Below are positions 10,989 to 19,074 of a DNA stretch of 36,169 bases, in pieces. The translations under genes were made by a program, and so were the position numbers. The notes under the pieces were generated by a model. The model did no database searches, was not told the DNA's origin, and was given only the letters and a program-made list of their open reading frames with translations. Source of the stretch: Gemmatimonadota bacterium. Lineage in GTDB: Bacteria; Gemmatimonadota; Gemmatimonadetes; Gemmatimonadales; GWC2-71-9. Position 1 is the stretch's first letter; the number at the start of each line of letters is the position of its first letter. Location: NCBI GenBank assembly GCA_003220985.1, contig QHTY01000147.1:1-36169 (forward strand), in the 5' to 3' direction.

Positions 10989-11915
10989 ATGACAAACCTC
11001 GCTTTTCGGGACCCGCGGGCCACCGAGCAGCGCAATCCGCGTACCGAGCGCATCGATGTGGCCTCGAGTCTCGAGATCGTGGACCTGATGAATGGGGAGG
11101 ACGCGACGGTCGCGGGCGTCGTGCGCGGCGAACGCGAACGCATCGCGGCCGCCATCGACCTGATCGTCGAGGCATTCCGGGCCGGGGGCCGGCTGGTCTA
11201 CGTGGGTGCGGGGACATCCGGCCGTCTCGGCGTGCTCGACGCGACCGAATGCCCGCCGACATTTGGTGTGCCGCCGGCGATGGTGGTCGGCGTAATCGCG
11301 GGGGGCTACCCGGCGCTCGTGAAGAGCGCTGAAGGGGCGGAGGACGACGTCAATGCGGGTGGTGCGGCGATGGATACGGCGGGCGTCACGAATCGCGACG
11401 TCGTCGTCGGGATCGCCGCCAGCGGTACCACCCCGTACGTGCGTATGGCCCTATCCCGCGCGCAAACACTCGGCGCACGGACCGTCCTCGTCACCTGCTC
11501 GAAGCCACCGAAGGTCCTCGCCGAGACCTGCGACGTCGTCATCAACCCGATCACGGGGCCCGAGGTGCTGACGGGATCCACGCGCCTCAAGGCCGGCACC
11601 GCGACCAAGCTGGTCCTCAACACGCTGACGACGGGGGCGATGATCCGGCTGGGGAAGGTGTACGGCAACCTCATGGTGGACCTGGTCGCCTTGAGCGCCA
11701 AGCTGCACGACCGCGGCGAGCGGATCGTGATGGAGTGTTGTGGCGTGAGTCGCGAGGAAGCGCGCGAGGCGATCACGGGGGCGGGCGGGAGCGTCAAGCT
11801 CGCGATCGTGATGGCGCGTCGCAAGGTCAGCGCCGCAGAGGCGCGCCGGCTGCTCGAGGCGGCCGGCGGCTTCGTCCGTCCCGTCGTCGGCGATCCGCCC
11901 GCCGTGACGCGATGA
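10989..11915 (+). CDS. murQ: N-acetylmuramic acid 6-phosphate etherase
   Basis: TEQRNPRTERIDVASSLEIVDLMNGED, GRLVYVGAGTSGRLGVLDATECPPTFG, GIAASGTTPYV. Confidence 0.97.
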   Translation: MTNLAFRDPRATEQRNPRTERIDVASSLEIVDLMNGEDATVAGVVRGERERIAAAIDLIVEAFRAGGRLVYVGAGTSGRLGVLDATECPPTFGVPPAMVVGVIAGGYPALVKSAEGAEDDVNAGGAAMDTAGVTNRDVVVGIAASGTTPYVRMALSRAQTLGARTVLVTCSKPPKVLAETCDVVINPITGPEVLTGSTRLKAGTATKLVLNTLTTGAMIRLGKVYGNLMVDLVALSAKLHDRGERIVMECCGVSREEAREAITGAGGSVKLAIVMARRKVSAAEARRLLEAAGGFVRPVVGDPPAVTR

Positions 11916-13051
11916 GCGACACGCTCGCGGTCGGCGTGATGTCGGGGACATCGCTCGACGGGATCTCGACGGCCCTGGTACGACTGCGGGACGGTGCCGG
12001 AGGCGCGGAGCTCGTCGCCTTCCGCCAGGAGCCGTACAGCTCGGCGGAGCGGGGCGCAATCATCGACGCGATGGCACGCGGCACGCCGAAGGACGTGGCG
12101 TTTTTGCACGTCGCGCTGGGCGAACGGTTTGCCGCTGCCGTCCTCGGCTTGCTGGCGCAGGCGCGCGCGTCGCCCAAAGATCTGTCGTTTATCGCATCCC
12201 ACGGCCAAACGATCTGGCATGAGCCCGGGCGCGCGACGTTCCAGCTCGGCGACGCTGCCGTGCTGGCCGAGCGCGTCGGCGTTCGCGTGGTGAGCGATTT
12301 TCGCGCGCGCGACGTGGCGGCGGGAGGGCAGGGCGCGCCGCTCGTGCCGCTCGCCGATGTCATGCTGTTCGGGCATGAACAGCACGGGCGCTGGCTGCTG
12401 AACGTCGGCGGGATGGCGAATGTCACGTGGGTGCCGCGGCGCGGTGTGGCCGAGGGTGCGTTTGCGTTCGACACCGGCCCGGGCGTCGCCGTGATCGACG
12501 CGATCACGCGGCGCCTGGATCCGGACGCGCCGTACGACCGCGATGGCGAGCGCGCCCGCCGCGGCCGGCCGGTCGCTAAGCTCCTCGAGGAGCTGTTGGC
12601 GGATCCGTATTTCGATCAGCCGCCGCCCAAGAGCACGGGGCGCGAGCGGTTCGGGATCGATTACGCCGACAAGGTGCTCGCGCGTGTCAAGAAAGCCGGC
12701 GGCTCCGACAATGACGCGATCGCCACTGCGACGGCGCTCACGGCGGAATCGATCGGGCGGGCGATTGCGCGTTGGGGGGAAGGGAGAAGGGGGACGGGGG
12801 ACGGGGAAATCGCGGAGGTGGTGATCTCGGGTGGCGGCGCCAAGAATCCCGCGCTGGTCGAACGACTGGCCGCAAAGATCCAGCCGCGCCCCGTCGTGCT
12901 ATTCGATCAGCTGTTCTTCGACGGCGAGGCGAAAGAAGCGGTCGCGTTCGCGTTTCTCGGCATGCAGACCGTGTCCGGGAAGCCGGGCAATCTGCCGGCG
13001 GCGACGGGCGCGCGGGGACCGCGCGTGTTGGGACACATCACGCCCGCATGA
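11912..13051 (+). CDS. anmK: Anhydro-N-acetylmuramic acid kinase
   Basis: VGVMSGTSLDGIS, FIASHGQTIWHEP, DFRARDVAAGGQGAPLVP, NVGGMANVT, EVVISGGGAKNP. ATGA overlap with murQ. Confidence 0.97.
   Translation: MSDTLAVGVMSGTSLDGISTALVRLRDGAGGAELVAFRQEPYSSAERGAIIDAMARGTPKDVAFLHVALGERFAAAVLGLLAQARASPKDLSFIASHGQTIWHEPGRATFQLGDAAVLAERVGVRVVSDFRARDVAAGGQGAPLVPLADVMLFGHEQHGRWLLNVGGMANVTWVPRRGVAEGAFAFDTGPGVAVIDAITRRLDPDAPYDRDGERARRGRPVAKLLEELLADPYFDQPPPKSTGRERFGIDYADKVLARVKKAGGSDNDAIATATALTAESIGRAIARWGEGRRGTGDGEIAEVVISGGGAKNPALVERLAAKIQPRPVVLFDQLFFDGEAKEAVAFAFLGMQTVSGKPGNLPAATGARGPRVLGHITPA
12775..12809 (+). repeat. Period-7 micro-repeat (5 units) in anmK
   Basis: gggggaa gggagaa gggggac gggggac ggggaaa. 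Confidence 0.8.
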
Positions 13052-14490
13052 TTCTGCCTCCCCTCCCGCGTGCGCGCCTCGTGTGTCCGGCGCTGCGCTG
13101 GCGACGCGGCTCCTTCAAGTCCGAACGCACGAAAATCGAGCAAGCGCTGGCCGCTGGAGTGGGCGGATTCATTCTCTTTGGCGGCACGCGCGCCGCCGTG
13201 ACCGCGCTCGCGAGAGCACTGCGCGACGTTGCCGGCCGTCCACTGCTGCTCGGCTCGGACTTCGAGCGGGGGCCGGGGCAACAGGTGAAGGGTCTCACCG
13301 AGCTGCCGCCGCCCGCCGCGCTCGGGTATCTCAACGATCTCGATGCCACGTATGCCGCGGCGTCGATAACCGCCACCGAAGCGCGCGCGGTCGGGCTCAA
13401 CTGGATATTCGCGCCGGTCTGCGATCTCGACATCGAGCCGAAGAACCCGATCGTGCAGACGCGCTCGTTCGCTGCTGATCCGGAACGCGTGGCGGCGCAT
13501 GCGGCCGCCTGGATTCGTGGTTGCCAGGAACATGGGGCGCTTGCGTGTGCCAAGCACTACCCCGGACATGGGCGGACCACGACGGACTCGCACGAAGGCC
13601 TTCCCATTGTCGAGGCAATGGGTGACGACGTGCAGCGCACCGACGTCGCGCCGTTCAAAGCGGCCGTGGACGCCGGCGTTGGGAGTGTCATGCCGGCGTT
13701 CGTCGCCTACCCGCGCTGGGACGCGAGCGGCTCTGCCGCGACGTTCTCTCCGATCATACTCGGGTATCTGCGCGACACCCTGAGGTTCAGCGGGCTCACG
13801 GTAACGGATGCCTTCATCATGGGCGGCGCGACTGCGGCGGCGCCGGAGGGTGAAGCGGCAGCGGCGGCGATCGCCGCCGGGTGCGACATGCTGCTGTATC
13901 CGACGGATTGGGCTGGTGTCGTCCACGCGCTGGAAGGCGTCCCGGCTGCGAGGGCTGAGGAGGCACTGGCGAGATACGAGAAAAGCCTCGGGGAGTGGGG
14001 GATGGGGGACGCGGGACGGGTGGACGACGCGATGCTAGTCGAGCATCAGAAGTTCGCCGATAGTCTATCTGATCGAGCCGTTCATCTGATTCGTGGGACG
14101 TCGCCAGCGCTTTCGAAATCCCTTGCCGTCACGATTGTCGACGACGACGTCGGAGGTCCATACACGATCCCGCCGCGCGACGTGTTTGCCAAGACCTTAG
14201 CAACGCAGGGGGTACGGTTTCCCAGAAACCGGACACCTGACACCCGACACCTGATCCTCGTATACGCGGAGCCGAGATCGTGGAAGGGCCGCGCCGATCT
14301 GGGCGCGCAGTCAGTCGCGAAGCTCGAGCGGCTGGTGCCTGGGGCATCACTCGTGGTCTTGTTCGCGCATCCGCGGCTGGCTGCCCAAATCCCAGGTGAC
14401 GTGCCAGTCGTGTGCGCCTGGCATGGGCAGGCGTTGATGCAACGGGCAGCGGCGCGCTGGGTTCAAGCTGCCGGTGTACAGCGCGGATAG
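13048..14490 (+). CDS. nagZ: GH3 family beta-N-acetylglucosaminidase (NagZ-like)
   Basis: Contains CAKHYPGHGRTTTDSHEGLP (GH3 NagZ H/D motif); ATGA overlap with anmK; murQ-anmK-nagZ order. Has a C-terminal extension of about 150 aa. Confidence 0.9.
   Translation: MILPPLPRARLVCPALRWRRGSFKSERTKIEQALAAGVGGFILFGGTRAAVTALARALRDVAGRPLLLGSDFERGPGQQVKGLTELPPPAALGYLNDLDATYAAASITATEARAVGLNWIFAPVCDLDIEPKNPIVQTRSFAADPERVAAHAAAWIRGCQEHGALACAKHYPGHGRTTTDSHEGLPIVEAMGDDVQRTDVAPFKAAVDAGVGSVMPAFVAYPRWDASGSAATFSPIILGYLRDTLRFSGLTVTDAFIMGGATAAAPEGEAAAAAIAAGCDMLLYPTDWAGVVHALEGVPAARAEEALARYEKSLGEWGMGDAGRVDDAMLVEHQKFADSLSDRAVHLIRGTSPALSKSLAVTIVDDDVGGPYTIPPRDVFAKTLATQGVRFPRNRTPDTRHLILVYAEPRSWKGRADLGAQSVAKLERLVPGASLVVLFAHPRLAAQIPGDVPVVCAWHGQALMQRAAARWVQAAGVQRG
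13990..14024 (+). repeat. Period-7 micro-repeat (5 degenerate units) in nagZ
   Basis: ggggagt gggggat gggggac gcgggac gggtgga. Confidence 0.7.
14224..14258 (+). repeat. Period-7 micro-repeat in nagZ
   Basis: agaaacc ggacacc tgacacc cgacacc tgatcct. Confidence 0.7.
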
Positions 14491-15589
14491 GCGCGTGGAC
14501 CGCACCGAACCGCCGGAGGCGCGCAGCCACCACCTCGTGGATACTCTGCGGCTATGGACGTACCGTGTTCCGGCTACGCACGCGGCGGTCCTTCCGCCCC
14601 ACACGCAGCATCCCAATCCGCTGGTCATCGGTGATTCCGTCGTGGCGTCCGTGTTCTCCCCCGGCGCGATCTACTCTGTGCACAAGGCGACCGGCGAACT
14701 GCAGTGGTTTTCCCAGTTGGATGGTTTCGCCGGAGCACAAGTCGTCGCTGCTGATGGGTGGATCTTTGCGAAGTCCAGCAAGACGTTGTATTGCCTCGAC
14801 GCGGCGCAGGGCACTCGGCAGTGGTCTTTTTCCCCAATCCCGAACAGCCGGGAGACGATCTACTCCTGCCCGACATATCACCAGGCCCGAGTCTTCATCG
14901 GCGACCGTGCTGGCATGTTTCATTGTCTCGATGCGGCATCGGGCCGTTTGCTCTGGGCGAAGAAGGTCTCGACTGAGCGGAACAATCAAGTGAATGCGAC
15001 CGCCGCGATCCACGACGACATCGCGGTGATCGGGTGCAATGCGGGCCTCATCGCGGCATACGACATCCCGACGGGCCGTGAGCTATGGCAGCAGTCGATC
15101 GACGGGCCGTGCGTCGACGAGATCCTGGCACAAAGGGGCCAGGTCTTCGCAACAACGGCGGATTCGATCTACGCGCTGGATGCCGCCACCGGGGACATCG
15201 CGTTTCGCAGGCAATGGCCGTCGCTGCAGGTGCGGGCCGTCACGCTCTGCCGGGACTCTATCGTGAGCGTCCTCAGAGATCGGACGCGGCGTGACGCAGA
15301 GACACTGCGCGGGGCGCTGGTGGCGTTCAACGGGGCGAAAGACCTTTTCCACGTTCCGGCGGCCGAGTTCGTCGTCGCAATTCGTTTTCACGAGGGCTCG
15401 GGCCTGATATTCGAGACGCGGCTGGATGGGCTCGGAATCGTGGACCCTGCAACGGGCGGCCGGCTGCACAACATCCATCGCGACGACGATCTGTTTAGCT
15501 GCGGGCTGGTGGATGTCGACGCAGACAGGATCTACGCGATGGATATGGAGGGTACGATCTACGCGCTCCGATCGCCCATCGCCAGCTAA
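14474..15589 (+). CDS. PQQ-like beta-propeller repeat protein
   Basis: Repeated blades: SVHKATGELQWFSQL, YCLDAAQGTRQWSF, HCLDAASGRLLWAKKV, AAYDIPTGRELWQQSI, YALDAATGDIAFRRQW. Confidence 0.82.
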   Translation: MYSADRRVDRTEPPEARSHHLVDTLRLWTYRVPATHAAVLPPHTQHPNPLVIGDSVVASVFSPGAIYSVHKATGELQWFSQLDGFAGAQVVAADGWIFAKSSKTLYCLDAAQGTRQWSFSPIPNSRETIYSCPTYHQARVFIGDRAGMFHCLDAASGRLLWAKKVSTERNNQVNATAAIHDDIAVIGCNAGLIAAYDIPTGRELWQQSIDGPCVDEILAQRGQVFATTADSIYALDAATGDIAFRRQWPSLQVRAVTLCRDSIVSVLRDRTRRDAETLRGALVAFNGAKDLFHVPAAEFVVAIRFHEGSGLIFETRLDGLGIVDPATGGRLHNIHRDDDLFSCGLVDVDADRIYAMDMEGTIYALRSPIAS

Positions 15590-15590
15590 G

Positions 15591-17597
15591 CTACCGCTTC
15601 CGCACGATCGCCCGCGCCGGCGCTCCCTCGTGGCCTTTGACCTTGAGCGGTAAGACGATCAGATCGTAGTCGCCCGCCTGCACCGGTCGCAGGTCGAGTC
15701 CCTCCACGATGGGAATCCCGCGGCCCAGCAGAATCTGATGGGTCCGCGGCGCCGCCGCGCCGAACTGCTCGGCCGAGATGTAGTCCACGCCGACGAGCAC
15801 GACGCCGGCGTCCGCGAGGAGCTGCGCCGCGTCCGGAGCGATGTACGCGAAGTCCTTATGAAAGGCCGAGTCCATCCAGCTGCGCAGCGAGCTTCGCGTG
15901 CGGAACAACACACGCCTCGCGCCCCGCCAATCGTGCTTGGTGAGCTCCGCCGCGTCGATCGCCTGCACGCTGTCGGGGATGGCAATCACGCGTGCGGCGC
16001 CGATCAATGGCTCGAGCGCCACCTCATCGATGGGTGCACCGTTCGCGATGAAGTGCATCGGCGCGTCGATGTGCGTCCCACTGTGCGCGCCCAGCGAGTA
16101 GGCCGACAAGGTGAGCTTGTCGCCCTGCTTCATGTTCTTGAGAAAATCAAATCGCATCGGCGCATCGCCCTCGTAGATCGGCGTGCGCGCGGGATCGAGC
16201 GTCGCCGTCACATCGATCCATCCCTGCGCGCTCAGCTCCGGCTCGCGCGGCGCACACCCCGCCACCAAGCTGAGCAGCAACGTAAACCCTAATCCTGCGA
16301 TGCCGATGATCGTCTCGGCCACGGTCCATGTCTTCAGTGTCTGCGGCACAGTCATGTTGAAGAACTCCTTGATGAGCCAGAACCCCGCATCGTTCACGTG
16401 CGAAAGCACCAGCGAGCCGGCGCCCGTCGCGAGCACGAGCAGCTCGGCATTCGAGCCTGGAATCGCCGCCGCGATTGGCGCAACGATCCCCGCGCTCGTC
16501 GTCATCGCCACGGTCGCCGAGCCGGTGGCTACACGGATCAGTGCCGCAACGGTCCAGGCCAGGACCAGGGGCGAGGCGTGCGATCCCAGCGCGAGGTCGG
16601 CAACGGCTTTGCCCACTCCACTCTCGAGTAGCACGCGGTTGAAGCCACCGCCCGCGCCGATCACCAGCAGAATCGTGGCAGTGGGACCCAGGCAGTCATT
16701 CGCGAATTTGAGGATCTGATCGCGCGTAAAGTGCTGGCGGTATCCCAGCGACCAAAAAGAGAAGAGCAGGGCGATGAGCAGCGCGACGATCGGGCTGCCG
16801 ACGAAATCAATTGTTGCACGGATGGCGCTGGTTGTGTCGAGGGCGACGTCGGCGACACTCGCGGCGAGCATACCGATCACGGGCAGCAGCACCGTGAAGA
16901 GTGTGAGCCCGAAGCTCGGCATCTCGCGTGACGTGTCGCCGGACAACTGCGTGGCCATCGGATTGTGGGCGGGAAGCTGGATACGCGGCGTGATCCACGT
17001 GGCGAAGATCGGGCCCGCCAGCGCCGCGGTCGGCAGCCCGACCAGGATCGCATAGGCGATCGTGCGCCCGATGTCGGCGCGGTAGGCTTGGACCGCGAGC
17101 ATCGCCGCCGGATGCGGCGGCACCATTCCATGCACCACCGACAGCCCCGCGACCAGCGGAATTCCGATCTTCACGAGCGACAGTCCTGACCGGCGCGCAA
17201 TGGTGAATACCAGGGGAATCAGGAGCATGAAGCCCACTTGAAAGAACACGGGAATGCCGACGAGGAACGCGACGACCATGATTGCCCAGTGCACGCGTCG
17301 CTCTCCGAACAGCGCGATGAGCGTGGTCGCGATGCGCGCGGCACCGCCGGACTCCGCCATCATCTTGCCCAACATCGTGCCGAGGGCGACCACGACTGCG
17401 ACGAATCCCAGAACGCCACCGACGCCGTCCTGGAACGCTTTGACCACGGTGGAGAGCGGCATCCCCGCCGCTGCGCCCAGGCCAAGGGATACGACGACCA
17501 GCGCAACGAAGGGATGGAGTTTGAAGACCGCGATCAGGACGATCAGCGCAAGCACCGCCAGGAAGGCGTAGAGCAGCAGGAGCGTGTTTGGGCTCAT
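15591..17597 (-). CDS. Fusion protein: GntP-family gluconate:H+ symporter plus C-terminal cyclase/KynB-like (putative metal-dependent hydrolase) domain
   Basis: Residues 1 to about 450 are GntP-like (HPFVALVVVSLGLG...HVNDAGFWLIKEFFNMTVPQTLKTWTVAETIIGIAG). After LVAGCAPREPE comes a cyclase domain with SLGAHSGTHIDAPMHF. No stop between them. Confidence 0.85.
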   Translation of the reverse strand: MSPNTLLLLYAFLAVLALIVLIAVFKLHPFVALVVVSLGLGAAAGMPLSTVVKAFQDGVGGVLGFVAVVVALGTMLGKMMAESGGAARIATTLIALFGERRVHWAIMVVAFLVGIPVFFQVGFMLLIPLVFTIARRSGLSLVKIGIPLVAGLSVVHGMVPPHPAAMLAVQAYRADIGRTIAYAILVGLPTAALAGPIFATWITPRIQLPAHNPMATQLSGDTSREMPSFGLTLFTVLLPVIGMLAASVADVALDTTSAIRATIDFVGSPIVALLIALLFSFWSLGYRQHFTRDQILKFANDCLGPTATILLVIGAGGGFNRVLLESGVGKAVADLALGSHASPLVLAWTVAALIRVATGSATVAMTTSAGIVAPIAAAIPGSNAELLVLATGAGSLVLSHVNDAGFWLIKEFFNMTVPQTLKTWTVAETIIGIAGLGFTLLLSLVAGCAPREPELSAQGWIDVTATLDPARTPIYEGDAPMRFDFLKNMKQGDKLTLSAYSLGAHSGTHIDAPMHFIANGAPIDEVALEPLIGAARVIAIPDSVQAIDAAELTKHDWRGARRVLFRTRSSLRSWMDSAFHKDFAYIAPDAAQLLADAGVVLVGVDYISAEQFGAAAPRTHQILLGRGIPIVEGLDLRPVQAGDYDLIVLPLKVKGHEGAPARAIVRKR

Positions 17598-18097
17598 GCC
17601 GCGCGCTTCACCAAATCGGCGACGATCGCGTCAGGCGTCTCGCGGATATCGCACACCCACGTGTGCTCGTCCGGTGCCGGTTCTTCCAGTGTGGCGGCCT
17701 GGCTGTCGAGCAGGGCCGGCGGCATGAAATGACCGCGCCGGTTGGCCAGGCGTTCGGCGAGGATTGCGCGGGTTCCCTTGAGATAGACGAAGCGTACGTC
17801 CGCGGCACCAACGGAGCGCAGCAGGTCACGATAGCTGCGTTTGAGTGCCGAACACGCGACGACCAGACCCACGCCCGCGCGCCTTGCGTCGCGCAATCGA
17901 CCCGCGATCGCGAGTAACCAAGGGCGGCGGTCGTCATCGGTCAGCGGGATGCCAGCCGCCATTCGCTCGACATTTTGAGCCGGGTGCAGGTCGTCGCCTT
18001 CGAGGAACGCGAGCTGGAGCGCGCGCGCGAGCTTCGCTCCGACTGTCGTCTTGCCGGAGCCCGAGACGCCCATGATTACGTAGAGTCCAGTGTGCAC
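17594..18097 (-). CDS. gntK: Gluconokinase
   Basis: YVIMGVSGSGKTTVGAKLARAL...FLEGDDLHPAQNVERMAAGIPLTDDDRRPWL, VVACSALKRSYRDLLR. Overlaps the permease by 4 nt. GTG start at 18097 fits the conserved N-terminus. Confidence 0.95.
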   Translation of the reverse strand: MHTGLYVIMGVSGSGKTTVGAKLARALQLAFLEGDDLHPAQNVERMAAGIPLTDDDRRPWLLAIAGRLRDARRAGVGLVVACSALKRSYRDLLRSVGAADVRFVYLKGTRAILAERLANRRGHFMPPALLDSQAATLEEPAPDEHTWVCDIRETPDAIVADLVKRAA

Positions 18098-18171
18098 AGC
18101 GTGGCCCAATCCTATCCCGCTAATGGATTCGGTGCTACGCTTACCGCAACGCCTTCGCGGAGCGCGCAACG

Positions 18172-19074
18172 ATGCAGCTGGCGATGATCGGGTTGGGTCG
18201 CATGGGCGGGAACATGGTGCGGCGGCTGATTCAGGGCGGTCACGAGCTGATCGTCTACGACCAGAACGCGGAGGCCGTGAAGGCGTATGTCGGCAAGGGC
18301 GTCAGGAAGGCCGAAAACGTCGCCGACATCGCACGCCAGCTATCCCCTCGGCGCGTCGTCTGGGTGATGCTGCCAGCCGGCGCGCCGGTGCAGAGCACCA
18401 TCGAGCAGCTCGTGCCCCGACTCAGCCGCGGCGACATCGTCATCGACGGCGGGAACTCGAATTTCCGCGACTCACTGCGCCGCGCCGAGGCGCTTCAGGC
18501 CAAGGGCATCGAGTTCATCGACGTCGGCACGAGCGGCGGCATCTGGGGTCTCGAAGGCGGTTATTGTCTCATGATCGGCGCCTCGCCGGCGGCGTTCCGA
18601 CATTGCGATCCGGTTTTTCGGACGCTCGCGGCGCCCGACGGCTACGCCCACGTTGGTCCCCCCGGAGCAGGGCACTACGTGAAGATGGTGCACAACGGGG
18701 TCGAGTACGCCATGCTCCAGGCGTACGCCGAGGGGTATGAGATTCTGCACGCGTCGCAGGATTTCACGTTCGATTTGCGCCAGATTGCAAAGCTGTGGAA
18801 CCACGGGAGCGTGGTGCGCTCCTGGCTGAACGAGCTCGCCGAGCGGGCGCTGGCGCGCGACGGGCGGCTGTCCGGGATTCGTGGCTACGTTGAGGACTCC
18901 GGGGAAGGACGTTGGACAATCGAAGAGGCGCTGCGCTTGGACATGCCGGCGCCGGTCATCACGTTGTCGCTGCTCGCGCGGCTCAGGTCGCGCCAGGAGG
19001 AGTCGTTCGGTGCCAAGTTGATTGCCGCACTGCGCCATGAGTTTGGCGGACATGCGATAAAGGAGCCCGCGTGA
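18172..19074 (+). CDS. gnd: 6-phosphogluconate dehydrogenase, decarboxylating, short form
   Basis: MQLAMIGLGRMGGNMVRRL, VIDGGNSNFRDSLRRAE, FIDVGTSGGIWGLEGGYCLMIG, GAGHYVKMVHNGVEYAMLQAYAEG; about 300 aa as in short-form Gnd. Confidence 0.95.
   Translation: MQLAMIGLGRMGGNMVRRLIQGGHELIVYDQNAEAVKAYVGKGVRKAENVADIARQLSPRRVVWVMLPAGAPVQSTIEQLVPRLSRGDIVIDGGNSNFRDSLRRAEALQAKGIEFIDVGTSGGIWGLEGGYCLMIGASPAAFRHCDPVFRTLAAPDGYAHVGPPGAGHYVKMVHNGVEYAMLQAYAEGYEILHASQDFTFDLRQIAKLWNHGSVVRSWLNELAERALARDGRLSGIRGYVEDSGEGRWTIEEALRLDMPAPVITLSLLARLRSRQEESFGAKLIAALRHEFGGHAIKEPA

Follow-up and report, generated by a model that had tools for sequence, protein, structure and literature searches.

Fused permease and hydrolase genes at the locus

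The window, the whole 36,169-nucleotide stretch of Gemmatimonadota DNA that was analysed, contains a 668-residue open reading frame that starts with ATG, has no internal stop and runs from a GntP-family permease directly into a cyclase-family hydrolase (Table 1). The first-pass annotation had described this uninterrupted frame from the sequence, and the translation and Pfam matches on both halves bear it out. The GntP_permease profile (PF02447) spans residues 7–445 with 544 bits against a cut-off of 22.5, and the permease scores 490 against a cut-off of 293 with the NCBIfam model TIGR00791. The cyclase profile (PF04199) matches residues 461–610, the core of that domain, with 76.9 bits against a cut-off of 23.1. 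The junction reads GFTLLLSLVAGC followed by APREPEL, the end of the last permease helix and the linker giving LLLSLVAG/CAPREPEL (a slash marks a predicted cut here and below), with the LVAGC motif and its Cys448 exactly as first quoted.

The fused frame shares a four-nucleotide overlap (ATGA) with gntK, and gnd lies next to gntK in divergent orientation, confirming the two linkages proposed earlier. On the other side, a gene for a PQQ-type beta-propeller protein (PF13360; window 14474–15589, plus strand) converges on the fused gene, their stop codons being 1 nt apart. anmK and a GH3 (NagZ-like) gene, which probably form a pair for peptidoglycan recycling, adjoin the locus (window 11735–14490, plus strand).

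Table 1 Features of the fused locus and its neighbours in the window
Feature	Position	Strand	Basis
Fused ORF, 668 aa: GntP-family permease and cyclase-family hydrolase	15591–17597	−	Open frame; fusion in 7 other genomes
Permease part, residues 1–447 (product predicted after a cut between Gly447 and Cys448)	16257–17597	−	PF02447 and TIGR00791 above cut-off; length comparison
Last permease transmembrane segment, model helix 417–446, proposed type II signal peptide	16260–16349	−	AlphaFold2 model, hydropathy
Lipobox LVAG/C, residues 444–448 (Cys448 codon 16254–16256)	16254–16268	−	Gly-Cys in 11/11; homologous to lipobox Cys of separate cyclases
Variable linker after Cys, APREPELSAQG (10–15 residues among homologues)	16221–16253	−	Alignment; low-confidence stretch in model
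Cyclase / kynurenine-formamidase-like hydrolase domain, residues 460–668	15594–16220	−	PF04199; Foldseek to KynB 4cog
Presumed metal-binding motif HSGTHIDAPMH (H505, H509, D511, H515; with H620 and E632)	16053–16085	−	Invariant in 26 homologues; common to KynB
Possible internal ribosome-binding site and start, AAGGAG-TTCTTCAAC-ATG (Met415)	16353–16370	−	Sequence
gntK (gluconokinase-like), exact start uncertain	17594–18169	−	Same order in relatives
gnd-type 6-phosphogluconate dehydrogenase, divergent	18172–19074	+	Pfam; beside gntK in relatives

Conservation of the fusion

The first-pass annotation had named recurrence in other genomes as a check on the fusion, and a search recovered the same architecture in seven more. 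The GntP permease–cyclase fusion is thus present in eight species-level Gemmatimonadota genomes from two genera, at 82–88% identity, the carriers being a group of uncultured soil bacteria. It is full length and free of stops in G001, G002, G006, G007 and G008 from the window's genus and in G104 from the second genus, and in G005 it spans the junction at a contig edge. Three genomes of the window's genus had no strong match to the locus, only distant cyclase paralogues, and no fusion outside the two genera was found among 288 genomes of the order and 395 sampled across the phylum at the thresholds used. In the fused genes dN/dS is about 0.12 for the permease and about 0.11 for the cyclase, indicating that both halves are under purifying selection.

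Because the window comes from a fragmented metagenome-assembled genome (340 contigs, 82% complete), an assembly or sequencing artefact could in principle have deleted a stop codon between two genes. The chance of this is negligible: the eight separately assembled species genomes share this in-frame junction while differing at synonymous sites, which rules out an assembly error, and no stop or frameshift was seen at the junction in the other fusion-carrying genomes.

Origin from neighbouring genes

At ten loci in related genera, permease and cyclase are encoded by two adjacent genes, the permease gene first. All ten have gntK upstream of the permease, which gives the order gntK–gntP–cyclase; gnd is found beside gntK in relatives. 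The unfused permeases are 446–448 residues long (five measured) and end where the lipobox of the fusion starts. The separate cyclases bear lipoprotein-type signals of their own, such as ALALLA/CSPRA and VLGAVA/CAPSQ, and a lipobox cysteine is visible in 14 of the 16 separate cyclase genes. The separate cyclase of an acidobacterium (L076) resembles a signal peptidase I substrate. At L070 (4877–5654), an otherwise normal separate cyclase has Trp at the position of the lipobox Cys (VVAW, TGG for TGC), either because lipidation was truly lost or because of a sequencing error.

Residues after the cysteine agree between unfused and fused proteins, with CSPRE in both L060 (separate) and L055 (fused), a match which argues that Cys448 is the old lipobox cysteine. 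Judged from these alignments, the fusion appears to have replaced the signal peptide of the cyclase by the last transmembrane segment of the permease while retaining the acylatable cysteine, and the simplest account is a deletion that took out the stop codon of the permease, the DNA between the genes and the hydrophobic segment of the cyclase itself. In the permease tree, the fused genes form one clade (90/96) beside the separate L060 and L061. In the cyclase DNA tree, L057, L060 and L061 fall among the fused rows and a single clade is disfavoured (p-AU 0.0185), whereas with the permease and cyclase data joined a single origin is not rejected (p-AU 0.442). One fusion followed by losses would be the simplest story, with recombination or a second fusion event also possible.

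A conserved lipobox at the junction

The hydrophobic segment at residues 417–446 is followed by LVAG/C, which fits the lipobox pattern [LVI][ASTVI][GAS]C. The signal peptide of a canonical lipoprotein precursor lies at the N terminus; here the segment is internal, after 416 permease residues, and would be N-terminal only in three fusion-derived loci described below (L053, L054 and L056) or if Met415 serves as a start. The Gly-Cys pair is kept in 11 of 11 sequences (8 fused and 3 fusion-derived), among which all four codons are used for the Gly and both for the Cys with zero amino-acid changes. The positions directly before the pair remain hydrophobic or small, and the linker behind it varies in sequence and in length, from 10 to 15 residues. 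This codon-level pattern indicates that selection maintains the lipobox. As a chance control, we looked for lipobox-like patterns at the ends of non-first transmembrane segments in 43 polytopic proteins from the fetched DNA; in this small set, scored by simple hydropathy, the pattern occurred in 7 of 293 segments, all seven belonging to the fusion protein, and in 0 of the 286 others. Together with the codon-level conservation, this rules out a chance lipobox. Each of the ten genomes of the genus has genes for the enzymes Lgt and LspA.

The same conservation bears on whether the hydrolase simply stays attached. In an uncleaved tether, the cyclase would remain covalently on the permease at the periplasmic face, the lipobox being a relic, or lipidated but uncut. 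Transporters fused to an extracytoplasmic partner exist among the OpuABC-type ABC transporters, and the fused protein would gain directly by channelling a metabolite from the hydrolase into the permease. However, a relic should hardly hold Gly-Cys invariant while linker residues change and gain insertions and deletions, and the fusion-derived loci kept the lipobox when the permease was lost. The retained Gly-Cys makes the tether less likely, and we regard it as rather improbable.

Topology of the last transmembrane segment

The AlphaFold2 model of the fusion has a mean pLDDT of 91.7, with a last permease helix at residues 417–446 and a low-confidence linker. Foldseek matches the permease part to VcINDY and TRAP SiaQM and the cyclase part to KynB 4cog, with a TM-score of 0.92 by target; model and matches put the permease in the VcINDY-like fold. 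The C terminus of VcINDY lies on the periplasmic face (PMC9098524); ArsB, also a transporter of the inverted-repeat type, has its C terminus on that face too (PMC13381914). K410 and K422 precede the last helix of the fusion, consistent with an N-in/C-out orientation, and by analogy with VcINDY, on which the orientation of the GntP segment rests, this would be the topology in vivo.

If the C terminus instead lay inside, import would be coupled to cytoplasmic hydrolysis, and most characterised kynurenine formamidases are indeed cytoplasmic. This arrangement is very improbable, as the separate homologues carry lipoprotein signals, positive charges stand before the last segment, and the C terminus of VcINDY-type proteins is periplasmic.

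Permease loss with the predicted signal retained

In L053, L054 and L056 the body of the permease has been lost and part of its C-terminal end is kept before the cyclase. L053 starts MTVRLCFTLLLSLLMG/C and L054 starts MTVRLGFTLLLGLVAG/C, both with AAGGAG upstream, whereas in L056 a GTG start that overlaps gntK precedes TWLIKEFFNMTVPQTLKTCTLLALVVG/C. The cysteine stands at position 17, 17 and 29, respectively, and each of these N termini is a plausible lipoprotein signal peptide of type II. The three cyclases are still under purifying selection. Taken together, these loci suggest that the end of the permease can act as a type II signal, at any rate in an N-terminal position, and that the cyclase is maintained as a lipoprotein in this lineage.

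L053 and L054 have similar unrelated DNA upstream of the cyclase, with an open frame apparently antisense to another gene; because this DNA is common to both, the deletion of the permease is probably older than their split. The L056 locus is clearly of Gemmatimonadota type yet is filed under a betaproteobacterial metagenome-assembled genome, and its contig is probably mis-binned. Elsewhere, L057 has a scrap of permease C terminus (VAGLCFTMLLSLVM, then TAA) some 130 bases ahead of the cyclase domain, and its cyclase is intact, separate and equipped with its own lipoprotein signal, another case of permease loss with the cyclase kept. At L069 (4240–5636) the cyclase directly follows gntK with no permease between them, a gene order indicating that, at this locus, several lineages can dispense with the permease yet retain the cyclase.

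A proposed lipoprotein-type polyprotein or an internal start

We lean slightly towards the view that the fused gene encodes a polyprotein of two former operon neighbours, cut by Lgt and LspA between Gly447 and Cys448 into a permease and a cyclase lipoprotein. The last permease segment, oriented N-in/C-out, would take the hydrolase through the inner membrane and expose LVAG/C; after acylation of Cys448 by Lgt, LspA would cleave just ahead of this residue, leaving a 447-residue permease of ancestral length in the inner membrane and the cyclase lipoprotein on the periplasmic side. Residue +2 is Ala, Ser or Thr, so the cyclase lipoprotein would likely be sorted to the outer membrane. A single translation event would yield both proteins in equal amounts. 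Lipidation, cleavage, outer-membrane sorting and the substrate are steps that we infer from these comparisons. Against such processing, a segment packed among the other helices of a transporter may be out of reach of Lgt and LspA, and an invariant Gly-Cys would also be expected if only a shorter product starting at Met415 were processed.

That shorter product is central to a serious alternative or addition to cleavage. The cyclase lipoprotein might also, or mainly, be made from an internal start at Met415, the last permease segment then acting as an ordinary N-terminal signal peptide and the lipoprotein arising without any cut of a polyprotein, with the 668-residue product minor or tethered. 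AAGGAG stands 9 nt before the ATG and is found at all eight fused loci and all three fusion-derived ones; L053 and L054 kept both AAGGAG-ATG and the lipobox though the permease was lost. However, a conserved peptide, KEFFNM, together with the use of GAG for 83% of Glu codons in the fused genes, would explain the AAGGAG without any role in initiation; GAG is also found here in the unfused L060, L073 and L043, a minority of unfused genes. Moreover, L056 retains its GTG start where the ancestral permease gene began. We assign the nested gene a minor but real share of the probability.

The comparative evidence, which lay beyond the reach of the first-pass annotation, strongly supports the core of its proposal that the last permease segment is an internal lipoprotein signal for a periplasmic cyclase: separate ancestral lipoprotein genes, an invariant cysteine, permease-less descendants and the periplasmic C terminus of structural relatives all point this way. 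Its further suggestion, release by LspA, stands as a prediction. The cyclase-family hydrolase was formerly a lipoprotein and probably still is one. We put at about even the chance that the last segment of a polytopic transporter is processed as an internal type II signal and that later deletions freed the same helix as a signal peptide. To our knowledge, no such two-in-one precursor has been reported for the lipoprotein pathway, and our search of the open literature found no precedent for an internal lipobox or for signal peptidase II cutting a polytopic protein.

Function of the hydrolase

The cyclase half contains the family motif HxGTHxDxPxH. Its six conserved positions, the four in the motif together with H620 and E632, are presumably metal ligands, as in the KynB family; they are invariant in 26 homologues and common to KynB. 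With the arylformamidase equivalog model TIGR03035 the protein scores 144.7 bits, below the cut-off of 223.05.

An operon with gntK and gnd is consistent with gluconate:H+ symport by GntP, and the conserved gntK–gntP–cyclase order in distant relatives argues for sugar-acid metabolism and backs the link to gluconate first drawn from the window. The hydrolase would probably produce or release a sugar acid, for instance by hydrolysing a lactone, which GntP would then import and GntK phosphorylate. It may plausibly help to supply gluconate or lactone, with a lactone as the putative substrate. Of the ten genomes of the genus, just one has a strong SGL-type gluconolactonase match, versus GSDH-type sugar dehydrogenase matches in all ten, which makes a periplasmic lactonase a reasonable guess but only that.

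Relation to known systems

Bradyrhizobium FbcH, the cytochrome b/c1 polyprotein, contains a polytopic protein and a periplasmic partner in one chain that is cut by signal peptidase at an internal signal. The fusion has the same layout, although its cleavage is predicted, and it differs in having a lipobox for Lgt and LspA and a hydrolase lipoprotein as partner, where FbcH has a signal peptidase I site and a c-type cytochrome. In OpuABC-type ABC transporters, a C-terminally fused substrate-binding domain stays tethered. Both these proteins and the fusion place a former extracytoplasmic lipoprotein after the last transmembrane segment of a transporter, but the OpuABC domain binds substrate, whereas the fusion retains the lipobox cysteine and joins an enzyme to a secondary GntP symporter. 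With the GntP gluconate:H+ symporters (PF02447, TIGR00791) the fusion shares a full-length permease domain; its unfused relatives stop at about residue 446, and the fusion adds a 221-residue extension. With KynB 4cog and isatin hydrolase (PF04199) the cyclase shares the fold and the presumed ligand set H, H, D, H, H, E, but it falls below the arylformamidase cut-off, is apparently exported and belongs to a gluconate operon.

By definition and in prediction methods, lipoprotein signals are features of the N terminus. If the polyprotein reading is true, the lipoprotein machinery can work inside polytopic proteins, and prediction restricted to the N terminus overlooks such lipoproteins. The relatives of the fusion form a natural series, from separate genes through fusion to loss of the permease with reuse of its end as a signal, which bears on how signal peptides and membrane helices interconvert.
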